A stretch of DNA of 64,000 nt, taken from assembly GCF_030063305.1 (NCBI RefSeq), contig NZ_JASISV010000003.1, positions 186,001-250,000 of the forward strand, given 5' to 3'. Shown here piece after piece: positions 29,938-53,588 of this stretch. This DNA is from Salinibacterium sp. G-O1 (GTDB lineage Bacteria > Actinomycetota > Actinomycetes > Actinomycetales > Microbacteriaceae). Numbering within the stretch: position 1 is the first letter of the stretch; each line of letters opens with the position of its first letter. The position numbers were made by a program, and so were the translations under genes. The notes under the pieces were generated by a model. The model had not been told where the DNA came from, made no database searches, and saw only the letters and a program-made list of their open reading frames with translations.

Positions 29938-30009
29938 GCCTCTGTAGCTCAATGGAAGAGCAGTTCCGTCCTAAGGAAACGGTTGGGGGTTCGAGTCCCT
30001 CCAGGGGCA
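29938..30009 (+). tRNA. tRNA-Arg (anticodon CCT)
   Basis: Acceptor GCCTCTG/CAGGGGC, D-stem GCTC/GAGC, anticodon loop GTCCTAA with CCT, T-arm GGGGG-TTCGAGT-CCCTC, discriminator A, no encoded CCA. The anticodon stem has one mismatched end pair (G-A). The 3' end serves as attachment site of the island that follows, and integration has kept the tRNA intact. Confidence 0.94.
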
Positions 30010-30010
30010 C
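29989..30010 (+). repeat. attL-like copy: 22 bp at tRNA-Arg 3' end
   Basis: The last 21 bases of the tRNA plus one are repeated exactly at 46073-46094 and, for 20 bp, at 46277-46296. The core TCGAGTCCCTCCAGGGGCAC spans the T-arm and acceptor stem, the classic tyrosine-recombinase target. Confidence 0.9.
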
Positions 30011-44075: not shown

Positions 44076-44564
44076 ACTCCACTCGAGGTCAACGCAAGCC
44101 GAGCGCTACTTCCCATCGTCGCTGCACTGGCGGAGCAACTCGACGAGATCGTCACGTCGCCTCAGATCGACGATCCCCGCGTGACGCGCAAGTCAACGCG
44201 TTTAGACGGCCGCATCCTGACGCCCTTGTCGCAGCAGCACGGCGAACCGCAAGCATTCAAGATCACCATCGCGGCAACCGATCGCGAACCGACCCTGCGC
44301 ACACTCGAAGGCTACGAGTGGATCTACGTGCTATCGGGCCGACTTCGGCTACTGCTCGGCGAGCACGACATCGTGATGCGCGCGGGCGAGGCCGCCGAGT
44401 TCGACACAAAGGACCCGCACTGGTTCGGCGCAGCCGGCGGGAACCGCGGCCCCGTGGAAATTCTCAGCATGTTCGGCAAGCAAGGGGAGCGGATCCACGT
44501 GCGGACGCGATCGAAGGGTGCGGCCGAGGCCCTCGCATCCAAGGTCGTTCCACAGGTGAAGTAA
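44076..44564 (+). pseudogene. 5'-truncated XRE/cupin transcriptional regulator
   Basis: From about 44076 the frame reads ALLPIVAALAEQLDEIV, the end of an XRE helix-turn-helix, followed by a full cupin_2 sensor domain (EWIYVLSGRLRLLLGEHDIV, DTKDPHWFGAAGG) and a stop at 44564. The first 30-40 residues of the HTH were replaced by IS21 sequence, so DNA binding is probably lost, although an in-frame GTG/ATG from the IS could still give a fused product. Confidence 0.75.
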
Positions 44565-44580
44565 ACGCCGGGAAGTTCAT

Positions 44581-45270
44581 TCAGAGACGTGGGCGCACAT
44601 CTTGGGTTTGCGGAGCCCGCAGTTGCAGCTCGAGAACCCACGATTTCTTTGCCGCAACGACAAGATTTTGGTCGGCCTTCGACAGCCGGATGATGTTCCC
44701 GATCAAGTCGAAGGCCTCACCGATCAAGGGCGGCAGTTCTTTGATATCGACCGTCGACGCCCGGTGAAGGACCTCTGCCGCAACGGCCGGGTCGAGACCG
44801 TCGAGTTTCAGTAAAGCGAGGATCTCGCGGGCATCCTTCTGGCCCTTCTCGGAGAAGTGACGGTCGAGGAGGGCCGCCATCTTGGTGGCGATGTGTGCTT
44901 CGAGTCGCAGCAGTGTCCACCTCTCGAACGAGAGCTCGTCGGGGTACTCCGCCAGCACTTCGACCTTGAGGCGAAGCTTGCTGCCGAGTTGGGACTCGAA
45001 CGGCAGGTAGATGTCGAGGTGCACGTCGTCGATGATCGCCCGCAGCTTCCGACCCTGGTGATTATGGCTGGGGGAGAGGTCCGTCATCAAACTCTCAAGC
45101 TTGTGGCGGCTCTCCTGGGAGGTAATGAGGTCGATATCGAGACTGATCTCGCCGCCGACTCGAACGAAGGTTGCCCATCCACCGATGAGGATCGACGGCT
45201 CGAGATCGTGTCCAAGCCGGTCGACCAAGGCGCGGATGACACCGGTCTCGTCTTCGTAGAGGCTAGGCAC
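44581..45270 (-). CDS. AbiEii-like nucleotidyltransferase toxin
   Basis: A 229-aa protein with a minimal nucleotidyltransferase signature: ILIGGWATFVR (Gly30-Gly31) and SLDIDL (D45, D47), then a helical C-terminal part with KMAALLDRHFSEKGQKDARE. This matches type IV toxin-antitoxin toxins (AbiEii/AbiGii family), which transfer nucleotides to tRNA or similar targets. The GTG start at 45270 overlaps the TAG stop of the upstream gene (GTGCCTAG). The longer frame to 45816 is the antitoxin region read in another frame. Confidence 0.82.
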   Translation of the reverse strand: MPSLYEDETGVIRALVDRLGHDLEPSILIGGWATFVRVGGEISLDIDLITSQESRHKLESLMTDLSPSHNHQGRKLRAIIDDVHLDIYLPFESQLGSKLRLKVEVLAEYPDELSFERWTLLRLEAHIATKMAALLDRHFSEKGQKDAREILALLKLDGLDPAVAAEVLHRASTVDIKELPPLIGEAFDLIGNIIRLSKADQNLVVAAKKSWVLELQLRAPQTQDVRPRL

Positions 45271-45874
45271 TGGTTCGCTGCTCCCAATCGGCCTCGGCGA
45301 ACAGCGTTGCCTTGAGTGCGCGGGTGAACTCGGCTGCTTGCCAGCCTGGGCTCGCCCAGAGGTCAGCGTAGGTCTGCGCGAGGCTGGCGTACCCGGATGT
45401 CCAGGTGCGTGCCGCCACCGGATCTTCGCGGAGGATGATGACCTCGTCGCCCTCGGGGAAGTCAGCCTGAGACAGTGTTCTAGTCGAATAGACGATCCGC
45501 CGGCCGAGGTCGGAGACTGTGTTTCGGCCGCCGAGGTAGTGCACCGCGGCACTGCTGCCGCTGAGCGCGTAGTCGACCTCGACATCGTCGAGGTAGCCTT
45601 GGGCGGCAGACAATGTCGTGGAAACCATGGTGTCGGCGCGGAGGTTGCGGTGCGCAGCGAACGCTTCGAGGAGCTTCTCCGGCGAGACCACGGTGTACCC
45701 GCGACGCGAGTTGGGGCGGACGGCACCAATGTCAACGAGCCGCCCGAGCGCCTGGTAGGTAGTCGATGGCGCGACCGACGCAGCATCAGCGATGTCGCCG
45801 ATACTGTTCCAGTCACGCTGATTGTCGAGCGCGGCGTCGGCCAAAGTGCGCCACACTATTTCCACGTTCTTCAT
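45263..45874 (-). CDS. AbiEi-like HTH antitoxin
   Basis: A 203-aa protein: N-terminal winged helix (DWNSIGDIADAASVAPSTTY, LGRLVDIGAVRPNSRRGY) plus an AbiEi-like C-terminal domain (VDYALSGSSAAVHYLGGRN, GRRIVYS). Together with the overlapping toxin this is a typical abortive-infection or plasmid/island-stabilising pair. ATG at 45874 is chosen as homology starts at MKNVEIVWRTLAD; the frame to 45913 runs through the operator. It sits next to the right att copy, where maintenance modules are often found. Confidence 0.8.
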   Translation of the reverse strand: MKNVEIVWRTLADAALDNQRDWNSIGDIADAASVAPSTTYQALGRLVDIGAVRPNSRRGYTVVSPEKLLEAFAAHRNLRADTMVSTTLSAAQGYLDDVEVDYALSGSSAAVHYLGGRNTVSDLGRRIVYSTRTLSQADFPEGDEVIILREDPVAARTWTSGYASLAQTYADLWASPGWQAAEFTRALKATLFAEADWEQRTSA

Positions 45875-45902
45875 TGCACTATGCTCGCAGATTTCATATA
45901 AA

Positions 45903-45934
45903 TATGGAAGCACGAATCCATGTTTTTATGGAAG
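45903..45934 (-). promoter_or_regulatory. Direct-repeat operator upstream of the antitoxin
   Basis: TATGGAAG occurs at 45903-45910 and 45927-45934 (24-bp period) with an intervening inverted TCCAT, in an AT-rich stretch 29-60 bp upstream of the antitoxin start. AbiEi-type antitoxins autorepress from such repeats. Confidence 0.5.
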
Positions 45935-45947
45935 GTGAGAATTGTGC

Positions 45948-45981
45948 TTGCCCACCGTTTGCCCACAACCGTGGGCAAACG
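45948..45981. repeat. TTGCCCAC repeats near right end (putative integrase arm sites)
   Basis: TTGCCCAC (45948), GTTTGCCCAC (45957) and its inverse GTGGGCAAAC (45971) surround an AACC loop, an 11-bp stem. AATTGCCCACAATT at the left end (30070) shares the core. Together they look like arm-type sites of the missing integrase, though the hairpin could also be a terminator. Confidence 0.45.
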
Positions 45982-46072
45982 AACCAGAACGTACACGGTC
46001 AGATTCAACGATTACCGTTGATTTTCCGGGGATCTTGAGCATTTTCCGCGTGAATACACGGCTGAGAAGGGA

Positions 46073-46094
46073 GTTCGAGTCCCTCCAGGGGCAC
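46073..46094 (+). repeat. attR-like copy of tRNA-Arg 3' end
   Basis: Exact 22-bp repeat of 29989-30010, preceded by unrelated sequence, marking the right boundary of the island. Confidence 0.88.
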
Positions 46095-46105
46095 GAATGT
46101 GAAGT

Positions 46106-46130
46106 AGCCCCGCCATCGCGCGGGGCTTTG
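46106..46130 (+). terminator. Terminator-like hairpin behind attR
   Basis: AGCCCCGC-N6-GCGGGGCT followed by TTG, 11 bp after the att repeat. Probably the original tRNA-Arg terminator, displaced 16 kb by island insertion. Confidence 0.7.
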
Positions 46131-46276
46131 CTATTCGTGCGGGCTGCTTCGCATTCGTGCCCATGGGTGGCACCTCGAATCCCGGGGGTCCCCGCGCGCG
46201 CAGTCCGACGCATTGCGCCCGACGTGGACATCATTGATGCGCGCGGCCGCGCGATGTGTCGGCGGCTCGGGTGGGG

Positions 46277-46296
46277 CGTCGAGTCCCTCCAGGGGC
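46277..46296 (+). repeat. Third copy of the att core
   Basis: TCGAGTCCCTCCAGGGGCAC again, 202 bp after attR. The 46095-46276 stretch between holds the hairpin above and two ATTCGTGC copies but no gene. It may be the scar of an earlier element at the same tRNA. Confidence 0.8.
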
Positions 46297-46500
46297 ACTC
46301 TCGATCAGTGCCAAACTTCCCAGTAAATAGGCGGAAGTTGGCCCCCTCAGATCTCTTGATACTGGGTTGTTCGGGCAGGATGTGCTCGATCTCGAGATTC
46401 CGATAGGGCGTGAGGTCTTGCACGCTTGCATCCCCGTGTTGTGGCGGCGGAGCAGGGCGTGCTCTGCCCTCCCTGGCGCGGCATTCGATACCGATCTACA
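46297..46500 (-). pseudogene. DUF1524/HNH nuclease remnant
   Basis: On the minus strand QDLTPYRNLEIEHILPEQP is the conserved catalytic region of DUF1524 (GmrSD/DUF262-type restriction nucleases, I-E-H motif). Upstream residues ALLRRHNTGMQA appear in another frame, showing a frameshift, and the reading runs into the att copy at 46296. Only about 65 codons survive. It lies directly downstream of the giant defence gene. Confidence 0.6.
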
Positions 46501-46529
46501 CACAAATCTCGAGATCTTCTAGAGAGCAA

Positions 46530-49500
46530 TTAGCCGGGCACCGAGATGACGCCCACCCCTGTCAATTCGAGACGCCCGGTTTCAAGAGCAACCTTCAGGG
46601 CCGCGTCCAGGAGTGCCGCCATGTTCGCCGTCATCCGAACAACGCCGAACATGCGCAGGGTCTCGCGACGAAGTTCATCCTCAAACAAACCTCCGTCGCG
46701 GATACACATCGCGACCATCGCGTTGGCGATTTCCGTTGGGTGGACATGTTCGAGTGGTCGATCACTTCCCATCGCGCTGCGGCGGAATAGATGCCAGTCA
46801 GTGGGATCCACATTCGGAGGCCAGAGGTAAACCCGGTCGTTCTTGACGCGGAGATCAGATGGTATGCATTGGACGATCCTCACCATTCGGCTCTGCGCAA
46901 CTCGTTCCAAGCCGAACGCCGAGGCAGTCAGCTTCGCAAGTCTGACGAGATGGACGGGGCCTTCAGTGTGGACGATCTCCCGGATGACTTCTTCCACGCG
47001 GGCTGTCGCATCCCCTGAGGGAAGTCGGTCCAGCGTGTCTACTCCTCCTGCCGCCCTGGCGAGCCAAGGTTCGAACTCGCGCTGGTTCGCAGAAGTGACT
47101 GAAGGCACCCGCAACGTCGAAGCTTCGGTTCGCGTATCGGTAGTACTCGACTGCGACTCCTCCATGACACTCTCAAAAGGCTCATCTGGCATCTGGGCTG
47201 AGAGCTCCAGCTTGTCCAGTGCCGCCCTGTCGGAGGCCCGCTGAAACTCCGCTACCAACTGATCGACAACCAGGTTTGGATCTGCAATCCACGCGGGCAT
47301 CCAAACGCGGCTCACTCCTGGCCACTTCATCAAGTTGCGAAGCACTGCGGTAGGGAGGCCATCCCGATCAGCGACGGTTCTGCGTTCTGCCCAGCTGCTG
47401 TTGTCTAAAAGCACTGCCATGATGGGCGACTCGGGATTCTCTTGATCCGCAAGGCTGAGGTCCACTTTAAAGTCCGAGAGCCCAACGTCGGTAGTCACCG
47501 ACAACCCGCGTTGGCGGAGCCGGTCTGCGATCTGTTCCCTGTGCCTATCTACCGACTTCGCGCCAAACCTCCGGGCGGCGCTCGACGATCGCCCTGCGGC
47601 CATTTCGAGGTAGGCCTTCAGGTGTCTCAGGCCGACGGAGCTGCTCTCTTCAGCCCGAAGTTCCGAGGGTTCGAAGCTGCTGAACAGGATCACCTGTCGA
47701 CGCGCTCGTGTTATCGCCACGTTAAGTCGGCGCTCTCCACCGGCCTGGCTCACAGGACCGAAGTTGAGCGGAAGAATCCCCCGATCATTCACGCTAAAAG
47801 CGGTCGAGAACAGGATTGTGTCGCGTTCGTCTCCTTGAACATTTTCGAGGTTCTTCACGAAGAGTCCTTCGTCGGGCGCCTCGAGCGCTTCAATGATTCG
47901 CGTGTCGCCAGCGTCCCGCAGAAGGGATTCGATGAGAGCTCGTTGCTGGGCATTGAAGGTCACCACCCCGAGGGATGGATAGGAATTTGGAGATGCCCAG
48001 AAGCGTCGCTGAATTTCGTCGACGATGGCCCTCGCCTCGACGGGATTAGTGCGAAGGTCTTTGCCGGTAGCGGAACGGAGAAAGCGACCATTTAGCTGAA
48101 CGAGGCTGATGCCATGGCCTTCGAGCCCATCGTCGCGAACCCCGTGCAGCGGCGATGGAAAGGTGGAGAGGTTGCCGTAGTAGTGCTCGTTGCTGAATTG
48201 GATTAGCGACTCGTCCTGGCTCCGATAGTGCCAGGTCAAAGCGAGCGAAGGCACTTGTGCAGATACGCATTCAGAGAGAATGGACTCCTCATCCTGAACG
48301 CTTCCGGGCTCCCGCGATTCGCTCTCGTCACTTATTGTGGCCTCGGCGAAGCTCGTTGGAGGCATCTGCTTGCTGTCGCCAACAACGACGACGGACCGTG
48401 CTCGCCCCATAGCTCCAATCGCGTCGGCGACTCGGATCTGGGATGCCTCGTCAAAGACCACGATGTCGAACATGCTGCTTCGAGCGCCGTAGAAACGCGC
48501 AACTGACTCGGGGCTCATGAGCACGCAGGGCAGGATCTCAGCGATGAGAGGGCCGAACTGATCTAGTAGTGCTCGCACGCCTAAGCCACCGCGTTGGCGG
48601 TCCAGCTGGCGGCTGAGATTGCCCATTTGACCGCTCGTAGAGCTCGCGCTGAACGAACGTCCATTGAGGATGTCGCTGGGTATCGAAGTGACGAGGCTTT
48701 CTCTTACAAGATCGGATGAGTCGACATACCGCAAGACTGCCTTCTCATGAGCCGACGCGTCGAAGGTATCCAGCGTCGTCGAGGAAGCTCGTTCGTCGAG
48801 TGAGGCCTGCGCAATTGCGAGGTCGAACGCCGGCAGAGCGACCTCCGACGCAATAACTCCAGCCAAGATGTCGACTCGATTGGCGTGCAGACCTGCGTCT
48901 CGAAGCGGCTCGACGTATTCCAGGAGGTCTGCCCAACGCTTCAGTCCGGTGCTGGCGGAGGTGCCGAGATCCCGTCGGTCTCGGGTTGCTATCCACTGCG
49001 GTACCGGTTCTTGAGCTCCTCTCCACGCGTCCAGCAATCCAGCCGAAGTCCCGGCGCTACTTTGCAGTTCGATCCAGCTCGAGGCAATCTCCTTGAGCGG
49101 CGGCGCAAGTTCTGCACCTACGTCTCGCGACTGGTAAAGGACTCTCAAGGCCAGTGCGTAAGAGTCGTTCTCTGCGACGGGAAGACTCAACGTTGCACCC
49201 AGCCACTTCAGCCATCCGATGCGGTGTGAAGCAGGATCGGGTGAGAACGGCAACCAGGGGTTTTCTGGCGCGCTCCCCTCGAGACCAGTGATCGTGTCAA
49301 GTGCTTCTTGAGCGGCTCGCAACCGTTGCGCTGTTGTGGACAGCCCGAGAATCACCCCGCTCAATTTCCGCGGGTGGGGCAGCGTGTCGGCGAGAAAATA
49401 GCTCTCAACCCGAGACCGCACGGCAATCCTGCGCTTCTTCCGTCCGAAGAAGCGACTTGTGTCGGCGGCAAGGGCGTCCGCATGTATCTGATCGAGGTCT

Positions 49501-52500
49501 TCGTCGAAAATGGCAGGGTCGATATCCGGGTGGTCAGTACGCGCACCTTGGCTCTCCGCGCTGAGCGCATCAAGTGCGGCTATTGCAGCAGTTGACCAGT
49601 CGGGGGCCGCGACCGTGTCGATCGTCTCGAGCTGTACGGCTGGCGCCAACATCAAGCTCGAGAGCAGAGTGATCGCGCCGGAGTGCGGAGCAAGGCGCAG
49701 CACCTCTAAGGTCCGCGGACTGCGTTCGACGCGCGCGATTGCGGAGTCGATGGTTCCGGCGAGCTGCAGCATACGTTCCTGATCGAGCCCCGCCGCGCTG
49801 TCGATGAATCCCCATGGGTGATTTATTGACGGACGGGCCGGATCTGCGGTGTCCGGTAGTTGGCGCAAGCAATCCCGCAATACTTCGATCTGGTCAGCCG
49901 ACGAGGTCACCAGCGTTCGAGGGATCTCAACAGGCGGTAAAGCTTCGTCTGAGGCCAGAAGGCGCTCCCGCGCGGAATAGTACGAAAGCCCCGCCGCATT
50001 CTTCTCATGGAGCCTGGTCGCGTATCTATCAAGGGTTCGACGACTGGACTGGAGCGTCTCGGTTGCCGTGCGAAGACCGTCTGGGTCTGCCGCAACGCGG
50101 TGTTGAAGTGCAGCCTTTATCTGTGCGCGCACCGCCGCTGGCCGGCTTCCCTTGTCGTGGATGTCGAGCGCGAACGCTCCGAGTCCCACTTCCTCTAGAC
50201 GCCGTTGCACCACTTGCAGGGCGGCTTTCTTCTCAGCCACAAACAGAACCTTCTTGCCCTCGGCAACAGCGCGAACGAGCAAATTGGTGATCGTCTGTGA
50301 CTTCCCGGTGCCGGGGGGACCTTCTAACACGAACGTCTGCCCCGCGGATGCTGCGGCGACCGCAGCGAGTTGTGACGAGTCGGCCGGCACAGGTACCAGC
50401 GGAATGACATTGTCCAGGTTGGTGTGATCGTCGGCTGAGACCGGGTCGATGAATTGGGCTGTCGGCGTGTGGATCAGGTGAGACACCAGCGGATTCTTCG
50501 CGAATTCCTCCCAGTTGTCATCCAGGTCCTTCCAGAGACGAAACTTTGCGAATTGAAGTATCGAAAGATCCGCTGTGGCCTCGACGCGGAAGGGCAGCCG
50601 TGCCCGTTCCAATGCTTCTCTCGTCGAGCGGAATGCGGCGTCAAGGTCTATGCCGGACGCGTCCTCAGTAGGTTCGGCCAGACCTCCGATAGTCAGACCG
50701 TGAACTTGTCGAAGTTTCTCAAGCAGACAGTAGTTTGGTGTCGAACTTCCGGACTCGTCCAAAACGATTCGGTACTTGCCTCCGCGCCCAATCTCCAAGC
50801 GGACTGGCACGAGAATGAGCGGAGATCGAAGTTCTCTTCCGTTGAAGTCCCAGAGAAGGGTTCCGAAAGCCAAGTACAGGTTGTTCGCGCCTGTCTCCTG
50901 TTCGATCGTTTTAGCCTTGTATGCCAGGCCTCGAAGGCGAGTAAGGTACGCCGCATCTGTCACATCGACGAAGGCGCTCCCTTTCTCACGCAGCATCATC
51001 GAGCGATCGCTCTCGCTGAGATCCCTGCCGTAGCGTATGCCCCGTGCCCTCATGACTTGAGGAATTTCGTCGGAGGGAATCAACGTGATGCTTTTGTTGT
51101 CGTTGACAATGTCCTCTGCGTATCCGGCATCAGCATCAGCAATTGCCAGACTCAGCTTCCCTCGTTCGCCGAAATTGATCAGCCGGTTACGCAGGCTGAG
51201 GTCCAGAAGGGAGTTTTTCCATTGTGCGACGCGGTAGGGAGTGGTTTTGGCGCTGCGGGTGGCACCGTCCCCCTTTCCGTATTCTGTCGAAAGAACCGCA
51301 GCCCCGGCGGCAGGTCGGTACTCGGTGACAGTGACACTGTTGTCATCATTGACAGTCCTAGCGGGCAATGGGATTATGCGGGCACGTCGTGCTTCAACGA
51401 CGTCAGTGATGCCGAGAATGTCGTCCGGTCGGCCCTGGAGCCGTGATGTCTCTGGAGAGCGTCTTGCCTCCTCGAACGTGGTATCTGGGTGGGCCGTAGT
51501 GATCATCGTGGTTTCGATTACTCCGATGTAACCAAGGTCTACGAGGTTGATAGCCTCGAGGGCTTCGGAGTTGGCCGCGGCACCCAGGCTTGCTTCCTGA
51601 CGCCAGTATCCGACAAATGCGTGTCCCTCAAGCAGCCATAGGAGAGGGTGAATTCCGGCTTGCTCCAGCGCCGCCGCGAAGACGACCGTCGTGTCCAGAC
51701 ACGTGCCCACTCGTCCTTCGAGCACCTCCTCGGGAGTCCGGATCTTTTGTCCGGAATCTCCCCAGCTCGCAGGTGGGTTGCTGTAACGGATCCCGCGGGC
51801 TTTCATCGCCTCGAAAATGGCCCGGGCGATCAGATCAACACGGTTCTCGTCTGACTGGTAGCCCTCAAGCGATCCATCGCCCGTCTCAGTCTCCAACCAT
51901 TCAGACGACTCAGAGAGCAGAGCGGCGATGGCCGGATGGTTCGGCTGAACGTGCGCAGCCAGGAGTTCGGTAGCAAGGTGTGCCGGCTGACGCACCCATT
52001 GATGGGCTGCCAGCAACTCGACTTCACGCCTCGCTTTGGCGAGAACGACCCCATCGTGCGTGAGGGTCGCGGTGATCGACGCGGGACGCGACTCCTCCAC
52101 CCGTAGCATGTGAGCGGCGTCGAGCAGCAGTTGCGCATCGCTCAGGGCAAATGTCGAGTCACTCGCGATATCGATCAAATGGTCTGAGGCGAGCGACAGA
52201 GGTCCAAGAGCGCTCGTTGCCTCCAGACTGAGAGTGACTCCCCGCCGGGCGCGTCCGGAGTTGGTGATGATCACGCTGTCTACAACTGGCAGGCGGTTGT
52301 GGGCTGCTGCGTAGCTGAGAATCGGTACGACCCCGAGCTCGATACCAAATTCATCTCGGCCGGCTTCCAAGATTGTCTCGGGCGCAGATGGCACCGTTTC
52401 TTCAGGCGTCGCAATCGCGGCGGGCGGTGTCCCTTTTAGCAGTCGCGCCTGATCCGCTTCAGTCTGAGCACCAACCGCTCGCAGGAGCCTTTCTGTTGTG

Positions 52501-52850
52501 TCCACTGCACGATAAACGTCATCGTCCGAAAACTCGTCGTGGTGTGCCCAACGATTGCGAACCTCGCGTAGTTCACTTGCCAAATTTTGGGCGAGTCGCG
52601 GCAGGGTAGACGAGAACGGAAATCCGAGACTGCCCATTCGCTCGGTCATCACTCGCAGCATGGCCTGAAGGTCGTTGCGATTGTAGGTCTTGTCCTGAAT
52701 TCCAGCGGCGTTGTCGCGGGCTTGGAGCAAAGATGTCCAGCTGACGCCCTCGGGGATAAGGGGAGCAAGAACTCGGCTCACATATGGCCCAAGCCCTGTG
52801 ATTGCGAGCTCAAGCGAGTCGGCGACTTTGTCCCGATTAGTCGCGTCCAT
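46530..52850 (-). CDS. Giant HEPN-DUF4011-helicase-Vsr defence protein (Hhe-like)
   Basis: A 2106-aa multidomain protein. Residues 1-130: Swt1-like HEPN with R98-x4-H103 (RNRWAH). About 340-450: transglutaminase-like domain with C384 (VGTCLDTT), H410 (LEGHAFVGYW) and D438 (NLVDLG). About 541-700: DUF4011 (WKNSLLDLSLRNRLINF). SF1 helicase with Walker A 844-852 (GPPGTGKSQ), Walker B 1464-1470 (VVFDEAS) and motif VI (RRLNVAITRAR). About 1765-1870: Vsr-like nuclease (DFKVDLSL ... MAVLLDNSSW). C-terminus: DUF3320. It resembles the single-gene Hhe anti-phage system. GGAGG sits 7 nt before the ATG at 52850; the longer frame to 52916 lacks one. Confidence 0.92.
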   Translation of the reverse strand: MDATNRDKVADSLELAITGLGPYVSRVLAPLIPEGVSWTSLLQARDNAAGIQDKTYNRNDLQAMLRVMTERMGSLGFPFSSTLPRLAQNLASELREVRNRWAHHDEFSDDDVYRAVDTTERLLRAVGAQTEADQARLLKGTPPAAIATPEETVPSAPETILEAGRDEFGIELGVVPILSYAAAHNRLPVVDSVIITNSGRARRGVTLSLEATSALGPLSLASDHLIDIASDSTFALSDAQLLLDAAHMLRVEESRPASITATLTHDGVVLAKARREVELLAAHQWVRQPAHLATELLAAHVQPNHPAIAALLSESSEWLETETGDGSLEGYQSDENRVDLIARAIFEAMKARGIRYSNPPASWGDSGQKIRTPEEVLEGRVGTCLDTTVVFAAALEQAGIHPLLWLLEGHAFVGYWRQEASLGAAANSEALEAINLVDLGYIGVIETTMITTAHPDTTFEEARRSPETSRLQGRPDDILGITDVVEARRARIIPLPARTVNDDNSVTVTEYRPAAGAAVLSTEYGKGDGATRSAKTTPYRVAQWKNSLLDLSLRNRLINFGERGKLSLAIADADAGYAEDIVNDNKSITLIPSDEIPQVMRARGIRYGRDLSESDRSMMLREKGSAFVDVTDAAYLTRLRGLAYKAKTIEQETGANNLYLAFGTLLWDFNGRELRSPLILVPVRLEIGRGGKYRIVLDESGSSTPNYCLLEKLRQVHGLTIGGLAEPTEDASGIDLDAAFRSTREALERARLPFRVEATADLSILQFAKFRLWKDLDDNWEEFAKNPLVSHLIHTPTAQFIDPVSADDHTNLDNVIPLVPVPADSSQLAAVAAASAGQTFVLEGPPGTGKSQTITNLLVRAVAEGKKVLFVAEKKAALQVVQRRLEEVGLGAFALDIHDKGSRPAAVRAQIKAALQHRVAADPDGLRTATETLQSSRRTLDRYATRLHEKNAAGLSYYSARERLLASDEALPPVEIPRTLVTSSADQIEVLRDCLRQLPDTADPARPSINHPWGFIDSAAGLDQERMLQLAGTIDSAIARVERSPRTLEVLRLAPHSGAITLLSSLMLAPAVQLETIDTVAAPDWSTAAIAALDALSAESQGARTDHPDIDPAIFDEDLDQIHADALAADTSRFFGRKKRRIAVRSRVESYFLADTLPHPRKLSGVILGLSTTAQRLRAAQEALDTITGLEGSAPENPWLPFSPDPASHRIGWLKWLGATLSLPVAENDSYALALRVLYQSRDVGAELAPPLKEIASSWIELQSSAGTSAGLLDAWRGAQEPVPQWIATRDRRDLGTSASTGLKRWADLLEYVEPLRDAGLHANRVDILAGVIASEVALPAFDLAIAQASLDERASSTTLDTFDASAHEKAVLRYVDSSDLVRESLVTSIPSDILNGRSFSASSTSGQMGNLSRQLDRQRGGLGVRALLDQFGPLIAEILPCVLMSPESVARFYGARSSMFDIVVFDEASQIRVADAIGAMGRARSVVVVGDSKQMPPTSFAEATISDESESREPGSVQDEESILSECVSAQVPSLALTWHYRSQDESLIQFSNEHYYGNLSTFPSPLHGVRDDGLEGHGISLVQLNGRFLRSATGKDLRTNPVEARAIVDEIQRRFWASPNSYPSLGVVTFNAQQRALIESLLRDAGDTRIIEALEAPDEGLFVKNLENVQGDERDTILFSTAFSVNDRGILPLNFGPVSQAGGERRLNVAITRARRQVILFSSFEPSELRAEESSSVGLRHLKAYLEMAAGRSSSAARRFGAKSVDRHREQIADRLRQRGLSVTTDVGLSDFKVDLSLADQENPESPIMAVLLDNSSWAERRTVADRDGLPTAVLRNLMKWPGVSRVWMPAWIADPNLVVDQLVAEFQRASDRAALDKLELSAQMPDEPFESVMEESQSSTTDTRTEASTLRVPSVTSANQREFEPWLARAAGGVDTLDRLPSGDATARVEEVIREIVHTEGPVHLVRLAKLTASAFGLERVAQSRMVRIVQCIPSDLRVKNDRVYLWPPNVDPTDWHLFRRSAMGSDRPLEHVHPTEIANAMVAMCIRDGGLFEDELRRETLRMFGVVRMTANMAALLDAALKVALETGRLELTGVGVISVPG

Positions 52851-52924
52851 AGGTGATCCTCCGTCATCAGAACTGGAGCGCAAACCGAGCCCAGAGTCAC
52901 ATGTAACCAGACACATGAGATGTG

Positions 52925-52953
52925 GTCATAAACCACTTGCTTTCGGCGTCCAA
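52925..52953 (-). promoter_or_regulatory. Promoter of the giant helicase gene
   Basis: On the minus strand TTGGAC (52953-52948), 17 bp, TATGAC (52930-52925) give a plausible sigma-A-type promoter about 75 bp upstream of the start, implying a single-gene transcript. Confidence 0.55.
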
Positions 52954-52957
52954 TTTC

Positions 52958-53176
52958 TTACTGCGGATTTTGTTCTAGGAAATATTCAAGTTCATCCAAA
53001 ACGGACCTTGCTGGCGCCTTAAAGCATGGTGTGTCCCAGAAGCTGCCCCTCGGTACGAGTTGTGACAGCGCCGGCCGGACCTGACGTCCGATGAGAACAC
53101 AGCGGGACCTGTCGTCGAGAACAATCCAACCGCTCGGCAAGATCCGCGGCGCGACTTTCATGGCTGCGGCCAGCAT
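52958..53176 (-). CDS. Unknown 72-aa ORF
   Basis: An open frame with protein-like composition (MLAAAMKVAPRILPSGWIVL; C-terminal RSVLDELEYFLEQNPQ) preceded by GAGAG at 9 nt. I do not recognise it. It lies in an eroded region between the helicase and sdaA, and may be a surviving fragment of a longer gene. Confidence 0.35.
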   Translation of the reverse strand: MLAAAMKVAPRILPSGWIVLDDRSRCVLIGRQVRPALSQLVPRGSFWDTPCFKAPARSVLDELEYFLEQNPQ

Positions 53177-53588
53177 CGACGAGAAGCTCTCAGCGGCGCG
53201 CTGTCAACTACTCGGATCCCTCGCGGCTATCGACGGCCCGCGAGCTCACGGGTGGTCGCGGAGTGGACGTTGCGCTGGACATCGGCGGAGGAGAGTTCTC
53301 GAGCAGGCGCTGCCGATCTCCCCGGAGTTCAACAAGAGCACCCCATGCGAAAACACCACGACACCCGGGATTTGCGACAAGCGCCGTCAGATTGGAATGC
53401 AGCTCCCTCGTGTTGCCCGTCACCCGTCCAAAGCGAGCCGGACTCCTGCGGTTGACTCGACCATGGGAAGCACCTCCCTGTCGCCGCCGAGGTAGGCTGC
53501 CGGAGGGAGCACCGCTGCTCGCGCTGGGCATCCCGACCACTCCGAACGGGGACCCGATGCACGAATATTCCGAACCTGAGCTGCCGCG
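53177..53588. other. Decayed region with MDR oxidoreductase scrap
   Basis: About 410 bp without an intact gene. On the plus strand ARELTGGRGVDVALDIGGGE (about 53238-53297), continuing after a frame shift as LEQALPIS, matches the cofactor-binding part of quinone-oxidoreductase-like MDR enzymes. The surrounding frames give no further match. Nothing else recognised. Confidence 0.5.

Follow-up and report, generated by a model that had tools for sequence, protein, structure and literature searches.

A ProA-type giant gene of Salinibacterium sp. G-O1 and the probable Cys-His-Glu site of its transglutaminase-like domain

What does a giant gene that joins nucleases, a helicase and a protease-like module in one chain do for Salinibacterium sp. 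G-O1, and is its protease-like part both active and new? The gene lies on the reverse strand of the stretch analysed here (the window: 64,000 nucleotides, positions 186,001 to 250,000 of contig NZ_JASISV010000003.1, assembly GCF_030063305.1). An open frame runs unbroken from 46530 to 52916 (−), with its first ATG at 52916 and its end at 46530. We prefer the ATG at 52850 as the start, because GGAGG is found seven bases upstream of it; the gene (46530–52850, −) then encodes 2106 amino acids, as an earlier note on this DNA had it. Two numberings are in use: a residue number of that note equals the P0001 number minus 22, and domain ranges are given in P0001. The frame, Pfam, NCBIfam and PADLOC together identify a ProA-family giant with the order HEPN, immunoglobulin (Ig)-like, transglutaminase-like, DUF4011, superfamily 1 (SF1) helicase, Vsr-type restriction endonuclease (REase) and DUF3320/winged helix-turn-helix (wHTH). 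We consider it likely that this is a horizontally acquired, single-gene anti-phage protein of the ProA type (PDC-S37, MTES_1575-like) that works by the mechanism proposed below.

The NCBIfam model NF058533, 'anti-phage protein ProA', is matched over its entire length (positions 1–1903 of 1903) with 1681.7 bits, above the curated cut-off of 1500. The match spans residues 201 to 2094 of P0001; the model thus begins behind the HEPN domain and leaves the HEPN of the window protein outside. The PADLOC model PDC-S37 is also matched nearly in full (positions 9–1540 of 1550; 868 bits, with no PADLOC cut-off shown), although it covers only the part from DUF4011 onward (P0001 562–2118). Judged by sequence, then, the gene belongs to this family and has its domain order and catalytic motifs intact. 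A literature search, for which most subscription-journal papers were beyond reach, did not find the paper from which the name ProA originates.

The architecture itself is not new. Passages of PMC3710099 (Anantharaman et al., 2013) describe 'giant proteins' that carry HEPN, a transglutaminase-like peptidase, an SF-I helicase, a Vsr REase and a wHTH and that occur without modification genes. They propose that the wHTH probably recognises DNA, that HEPN is a suicidal RNase and that the transglutaminase may add another layer of defence by cleaving proteins. The window protein combines the same five parts, including the Swt1-family HEPN, in one chain, the transglutaminase part being recognized through weak matches only; no methylase family is among the Pfam matches of the 28 neighbouring frames searched. 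The example in those passages, MTES_1575, comes from Microbacterium testaceum, and a protein of M. testaceum StLB037 (L023), which by species and length we take to be MTES_1575 itself, shares 47% identity with the window protein. Apart from this divergence, the difference is that the same passages leave the third catalytic residue unnamed. The earlier note had presented a Cys-His-Asp module as an added proteolytic or protein-modifying activity. This novelty does not stand, because the whole architecture and the cleavage proposal appear in those 2013 passages, and the interest of the gene is modest since both the kind of protein and the proposed role of its transglutaminase are already in print. 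What is new is a detail: the protease-like part looks active, to judge from conservation and modelling, and its third residue differs from the one proposed earlier.

Two sets of relatives were used to follow the catalytic residues. The first comprises the 25 best full-length matches at that stage. The second has 49 rows and excludes shorter helicase paralogues, fragments, small HEPN-DUF3320 proteins, main frames under 1600 amino acids, 15 of the 21 Clostridia that lack the transglutaminase-like domain, the window's own copy (L004), L100 (internal stop) and L114. Four rows more than 95% identical to another (L041, L095, L096 and L108) were removed; the L108 protein, from the window's family, is more than 95% identical to the L031 protein from Klugiella. 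Frames were read from stop to stop, so that N-termini are possibly slightly long, and for L102 only the part before its first stop was used.

The transglutaminase-like domain (51477–51899, −; P0001 340–480) is delineated by weak profiles, conservation and a model. Of 39 deduplicated domain-bearing proteins (window included), 36 retain C384 and H410, and at the position of E446 37 have Glu and 2 have Asp; Cys, His and Glu are retained together in 36. The three exceptions (L054 R/E, L059 P/K, L107 S/G) retain the domain but have replaced both Cys and His, as would be expected of an active site. The third residue of the earlier note, D438, is Asp in only 11 of the 39, and E446 is the more probable choice, whereas C384 and H410 of that note were upheld; in the set of 25, C384 and H410 are each found in 23 and D438 is Asp in 7. 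In the AlphaFold model (26 sequences; mean predicted local distance difference test, pLDDT, 85.7; predicted template modelling score, pTM, 0.83), a helix begins with C384 and a strand with H410, E446 follows directly after the next strand, and D438 ends a helix. A Cys on a helix, a His on a strand and an acid after the next strand is the layout of transglutaminase-like and papain-like enzymes. The likely catalytic set is therefore C384-H410-E446 (Cys-His-Glu), a probable assignment drawn from conservation and modelled secondary structure. The conserved residues support an active Cys-His-acid module, and on the same grounds the transglutaminase-like part looks active.

At the N-terminus, the Swt1-like HEPN (52437–52835, −; P0001 28–160; PF18731, HEPN_Swt1, E = 1.2e-27) contains R98-x4-H103, which conforms to the R-x4-6-H pattern of HEPN RNases. 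The R-x4-H motif is present in 15 of 15 proteins in one count and in all 21 HEPN carriers of the 49-row set (once as RTDWAH), so that this prediction of the earlier note was borne out. Behind HEPN lies an Ig-like beta-sandwich (51996–52346, −; P0001 191–307), whose AlphaFold blocks are mostly above pLDDT 90; the VIA-align rows span 1–117 of the model, the best with Z 11.4, root mean square deviation (rmsd) 2.4 and 104 aligned residues.

The remainder of the chain was also called correctly at the outset, Pfam agreeing on DUF4011, a full SF1 helicase and a Vsr-like nuclease with DUF3320. DUF4011 (50712–51209, −; P0001 570–735; E = 2.5e-29) is followed by the helicase in two parts (47679–50381, −; P0001 846–1746; AAA_11, 3.8e-15; AAA_12, 1.2e-16), with Walker A GPPGTGKS and Walker B VVFDEASQ; K850 of the former and D1467 and E1468 of the latter are present in 49 of 49 rows. 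The MTES_1575 Vsr-type REase (47250–47537, −; P0001 1794–1889; PF18741, 1.6e-11) has D1797, D1816 and D1828. All 25 relatives of the first set have Asp at the three positions, and in the larger set the counts of Asp are 48, 49 and 43 of 49 rows, respectively; D1797 is replaced by Glu in one row and D1828 by Ser in five and Glu in one. Residues ∼24–132 of a model of the C-terminal region (25 sequences, pLDDT 84.9, pTM 0.54) match the catalytic domain of I-Bth0305I (3r3p: Z 10.3, rmsd 2.8, 94 aligned), and the same region matches 3hrl (Z 10.0, 2.3, 91) and Vsr (1vsr: Z 8.1, 3.2, 98). The chain closes with DUF3320 and a winged-helix region (46557–47051, −; P0001 1956–2120; DUF3320, 1.4e-7), and the end of the model matches winged-helix domains at modest Z scores of ∼7–9 (about 8 for the cullin WHB).

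These modules differ in how constantly they are kept. HEPN is found in 21 of the 49 rows, all with Cys-His-Glu intact; 15 have the triad but no HEPN, and 13 lack both HEPN and an intact triad. On a tree of the core, five changes in HEPN are needed, and the starred branches alone force five. The tree was made by a quick method (LG+G4 without mixture) and has several long branches (such as L060, L113 and L006), so that change counts are rough. L101, the row closest to the window (62% across the core), has no HEPN; where relatives are without HEPN, their loci showed no separate gene for it within flanks of ∼1.4 kb for some loci and at most 10 kb for others. As its distribution over these sequences indicates, HEPN is an exchangeable cap. 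One clade of the window's family (L109–L112), many Clostridia and L060 lack the transglutaminase-like domain. Since relatives lacking either domain exist, neither is needed for the core, and we regard DUF4011, the helicase and the Vsr nuclease as a likely fixed core on which HEPN and the transglutaminase-like domain come and go. Median identities to the window, taken over 38 domain-holding relatives, are 65 and 67% for the helicase parts, 59% for Vsr, 55% for both the transglutaminase-like domain and DUF4011, 44% for HEPN (21 rows), 42% for the wHTH (34 rows), 34% for the Ig-like part and 20% for the HEPN linker (26 rows). That the transglutaminase-like domain equals DUF4011, comes near Vsr and exceeds HEPN and the wHTH in this respect supports its place in the ProA-type reading.

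An intact triad accompanies HEPN in 21 of 21 rows, against 15 of 28 HEPN-less rows. We do not claim a coupling of the two, the independent-pairs test on the tree (5 independent pairs) being without power.

A related cassette is found in five actinobacterial loci (five of five such matches: L064, 6420–11038, and L065, L066, L067 and L068). Here the gene of a PLD-SNF2 helicase overlaps the frame of a small direct fusion of Swt1-HEPN and DUF3320, that is, ProA without its middle. Pfam confirmed the domains of both L064 genes and of the L067 helicase, the others being assigned by similarity; relative to L064 the helicases are 92–93% identical (partial in L066 and L068) and the small partners 77–82%, and in L068 the small gene is split over two overlapping frames. 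As these loci pair it with a PLD-SNF2 helicase, the HEPN-wHTH cassette is shared with another helicase-nuclease.

Some observations weigh against our explanation. The transglutaminase assignment leans on weak profile matches: the isolated domain scores 21.2 bits with Transglut_core (PF01841; E = 3.5e-4), below the gathering cut-off of 23, the whole protein 16.5 bits (E = 0.011), and a profile search of PDB sequences returned 3kd4, a putative protease, alone (E = 0.54). The conserved Cys-His-acid set of PF01841 does appear to be present, with Glu as the acid, and when 26 members (window and 25 relatives) were scanned singly at E up to 1, DUF553 (transglutaminase-like) was found in 20 and Transglut_core in 15. 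A profile comparison with eight transglutaminase domains of related genomes (E = 7e-5, probability 63) aligns P0001 364–427, the Cys side only; a longer alignment (probability 5) pairs E446 with the acid position (EPT in one domain) and leaves the histidines unaligned. Searches of the PDB, VIA-align and viral folds were filled by matches of ∼100–140 residues, in VIA-align on the Ig-like part, the Foldseek tables being without ranges; a missing transglutaminase-core row carries no meaning there. Relatives without HEPN or without the transglutaminase-like domain exist, and most of the neighbours that have a Pfam match are genes for the uptake and breakdown of sugars rather than listed defence genes.

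The transglutaminase-like domain could conceivably, though this is unlikely, be a relic with a structural or peptide-binding role; its residues would then be kept for folding, and only the helicase, the nuclease and HEPN would act. The three site-dead proteins and those lacking the domain (L109–L112, many Clostridia, L060) retain Walker A and most Vsr aspartates, which makes the domain dispensable in some lineages; the third Vsr aspartate is also changed in five Clostridia and L060. A relic would, however, sit poorly with Cys, His and Glu being kept together in 36 of 39 proteins and Cys and His both being replaced in the other three, as for an active site.

The spread of the gene bears on whether it is a defence gene at all. 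Counts over the ProA cut-off are the safer ones, because loose matches, even at E ≤ 1e-200, also occur in control genomes: 60 of 60 relatives and 7 of 14 control genomes match at E ≤ 0.001, and 2 of 14 controls at E ≤ 1e-200, but none of the latter exceeds the cut-off. By this measure, genomes with a match number 1 among 27 in the genus (the window's own alone), 13 among 249 in the family (against 24 at E ≤ 1e-200) and 3 among 149 in the phylum (against 7 at E ≤ 1e-200), the window's own included. Near-identical DNA for 44500–53200 was not found, and for the adjoining serine dehydratase gene 19 of the 27 genus genomes gave a match, in most cases a partial one. The protein is matched by 486 plasmid records, none of which spans 80% of it in one place; in Microbacterium chocolatum, the records NZ_CP015811, NZ_CP015812 and NZ_CP015813 (14–19 kb) match 60–69% of the protein at 39–41% identity, spread over several annotated genes per record. 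A role in general DNA repair or plasmid exclusion would suit a helicase with a Vsr-type nuclease, and every one of the 27 genus genomes searched has a shorter related SF1 helicase (at G000:C3:290286-293603 in the window's genome). We think such a role improbable, given the patchy spread, the lower GC, the HEPN cap and the fact that two family libraries list these proteins as anti-phage or as candidate defence. The ProA-type reading is supported by the full ProA model above its cut-off, the PDC-S37 score, the identity to L023, the conserved HEPN motif, the conservation of C384, H410 and E446, and this patchy spread.

How the protein would sense phage, in what order its parts would act and on which targets we infer as follows. 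DNA of an invading phage, or intermediates of its processing, may be engaged by the winged-helix and SF1 helicase parts and would be cut by the Vsr-type nuclease; on engagement, or when the attack on DNA fails, the N-terminal HEPN would act as an RNase that halts the cell. The transglutaminase-like domain (Cys384-His410-Glu446) would be a papain-type hydrolase, most likely a protease, with the giant itself or a protein of phage or host as its substrate. Helicase-nuclease and winged helix would thus serve as sensor and first effector, with the HEPN RNase and the transglutaminase-like hydrolase as added effectors.

A more specific version, which we hold to be highly doubtful, is that an encounter of the helicase-nuclease with phage DNA leads the transglutaminase-like domain, as an active Cys-His-Glu protease, to cleave the variable linker that follows HEPN (or else a phage or host protein), and that this cleavage switches on the HEPN RNase. 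If true, this would be a proteolytic trigger built into one polypeptide. It is in keeping with the intact triad of every HEPN carrier and with HEPN being absent wherever the triad is dead or missing (13 proteins); the 15 proteins with a triad but without HEPN weigh against it, and shared descent may lie behind the pattern.

Membership of the Hhe system, whose general build the earlier note had seen here, is hardly tenable: the likeness is partial, NF042953 being matched in two stretches (the best, P0001 1297–1928, covering the second helicase part and Vsr) and PADLOC Hhe giving 360 bits, but the 544.9 bits fall far short of the 2000 needed, while the ProA cut-off is passed across the whole model.

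The gene lies in a low-GC stretch (∼30–53 kb) that begins at a tRNA-Arg (29938–30010). This is the nearer of the two tRNA genes in the window, yet 16.5 kb separate it from the gene and it marks the opposite edge of that stretch; the integration hotspot supposed to adjoin the gene was not confirmed. Neither was a DUF1524 nuclease scrap: the two frames tested gave no Pfam match at E up to 0.1, and only a short HNH-like string, NLEIEHILPEQ, is readable at about 46.4 kb. Between 30420 and 44564, the same stretch encodes an ABC importer, KDPG aldolase, PfkB kinase, GH31, lactonase, GH16, a cupin, a GntR regulator and a mandelate racemase-like enzyme. With mainly sugar uptake and breakdown genes otherwise, it differs from a typical multi-system defence island. 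Two small frames beside the giant (44581–45913, −) resemble, by eye, a helix-turn-helix (HTH) protein and a nucleotidyltransferase (an AbiE-like pair); Pfam gives weak HTH matches for the first and none for the second, and PADLOC none for either.

The giant of Salinibacterium sp. G-O1 is now placed in a named family, its supposed novelty is traced to a proposal of 2013, and the residue to mutate is corrected to E446 from D438. For the family, HEPN and transglutaminase-like modules that are present or absent on one helicase-nuclease core provide natural variants with which to ask what each effector contributes.

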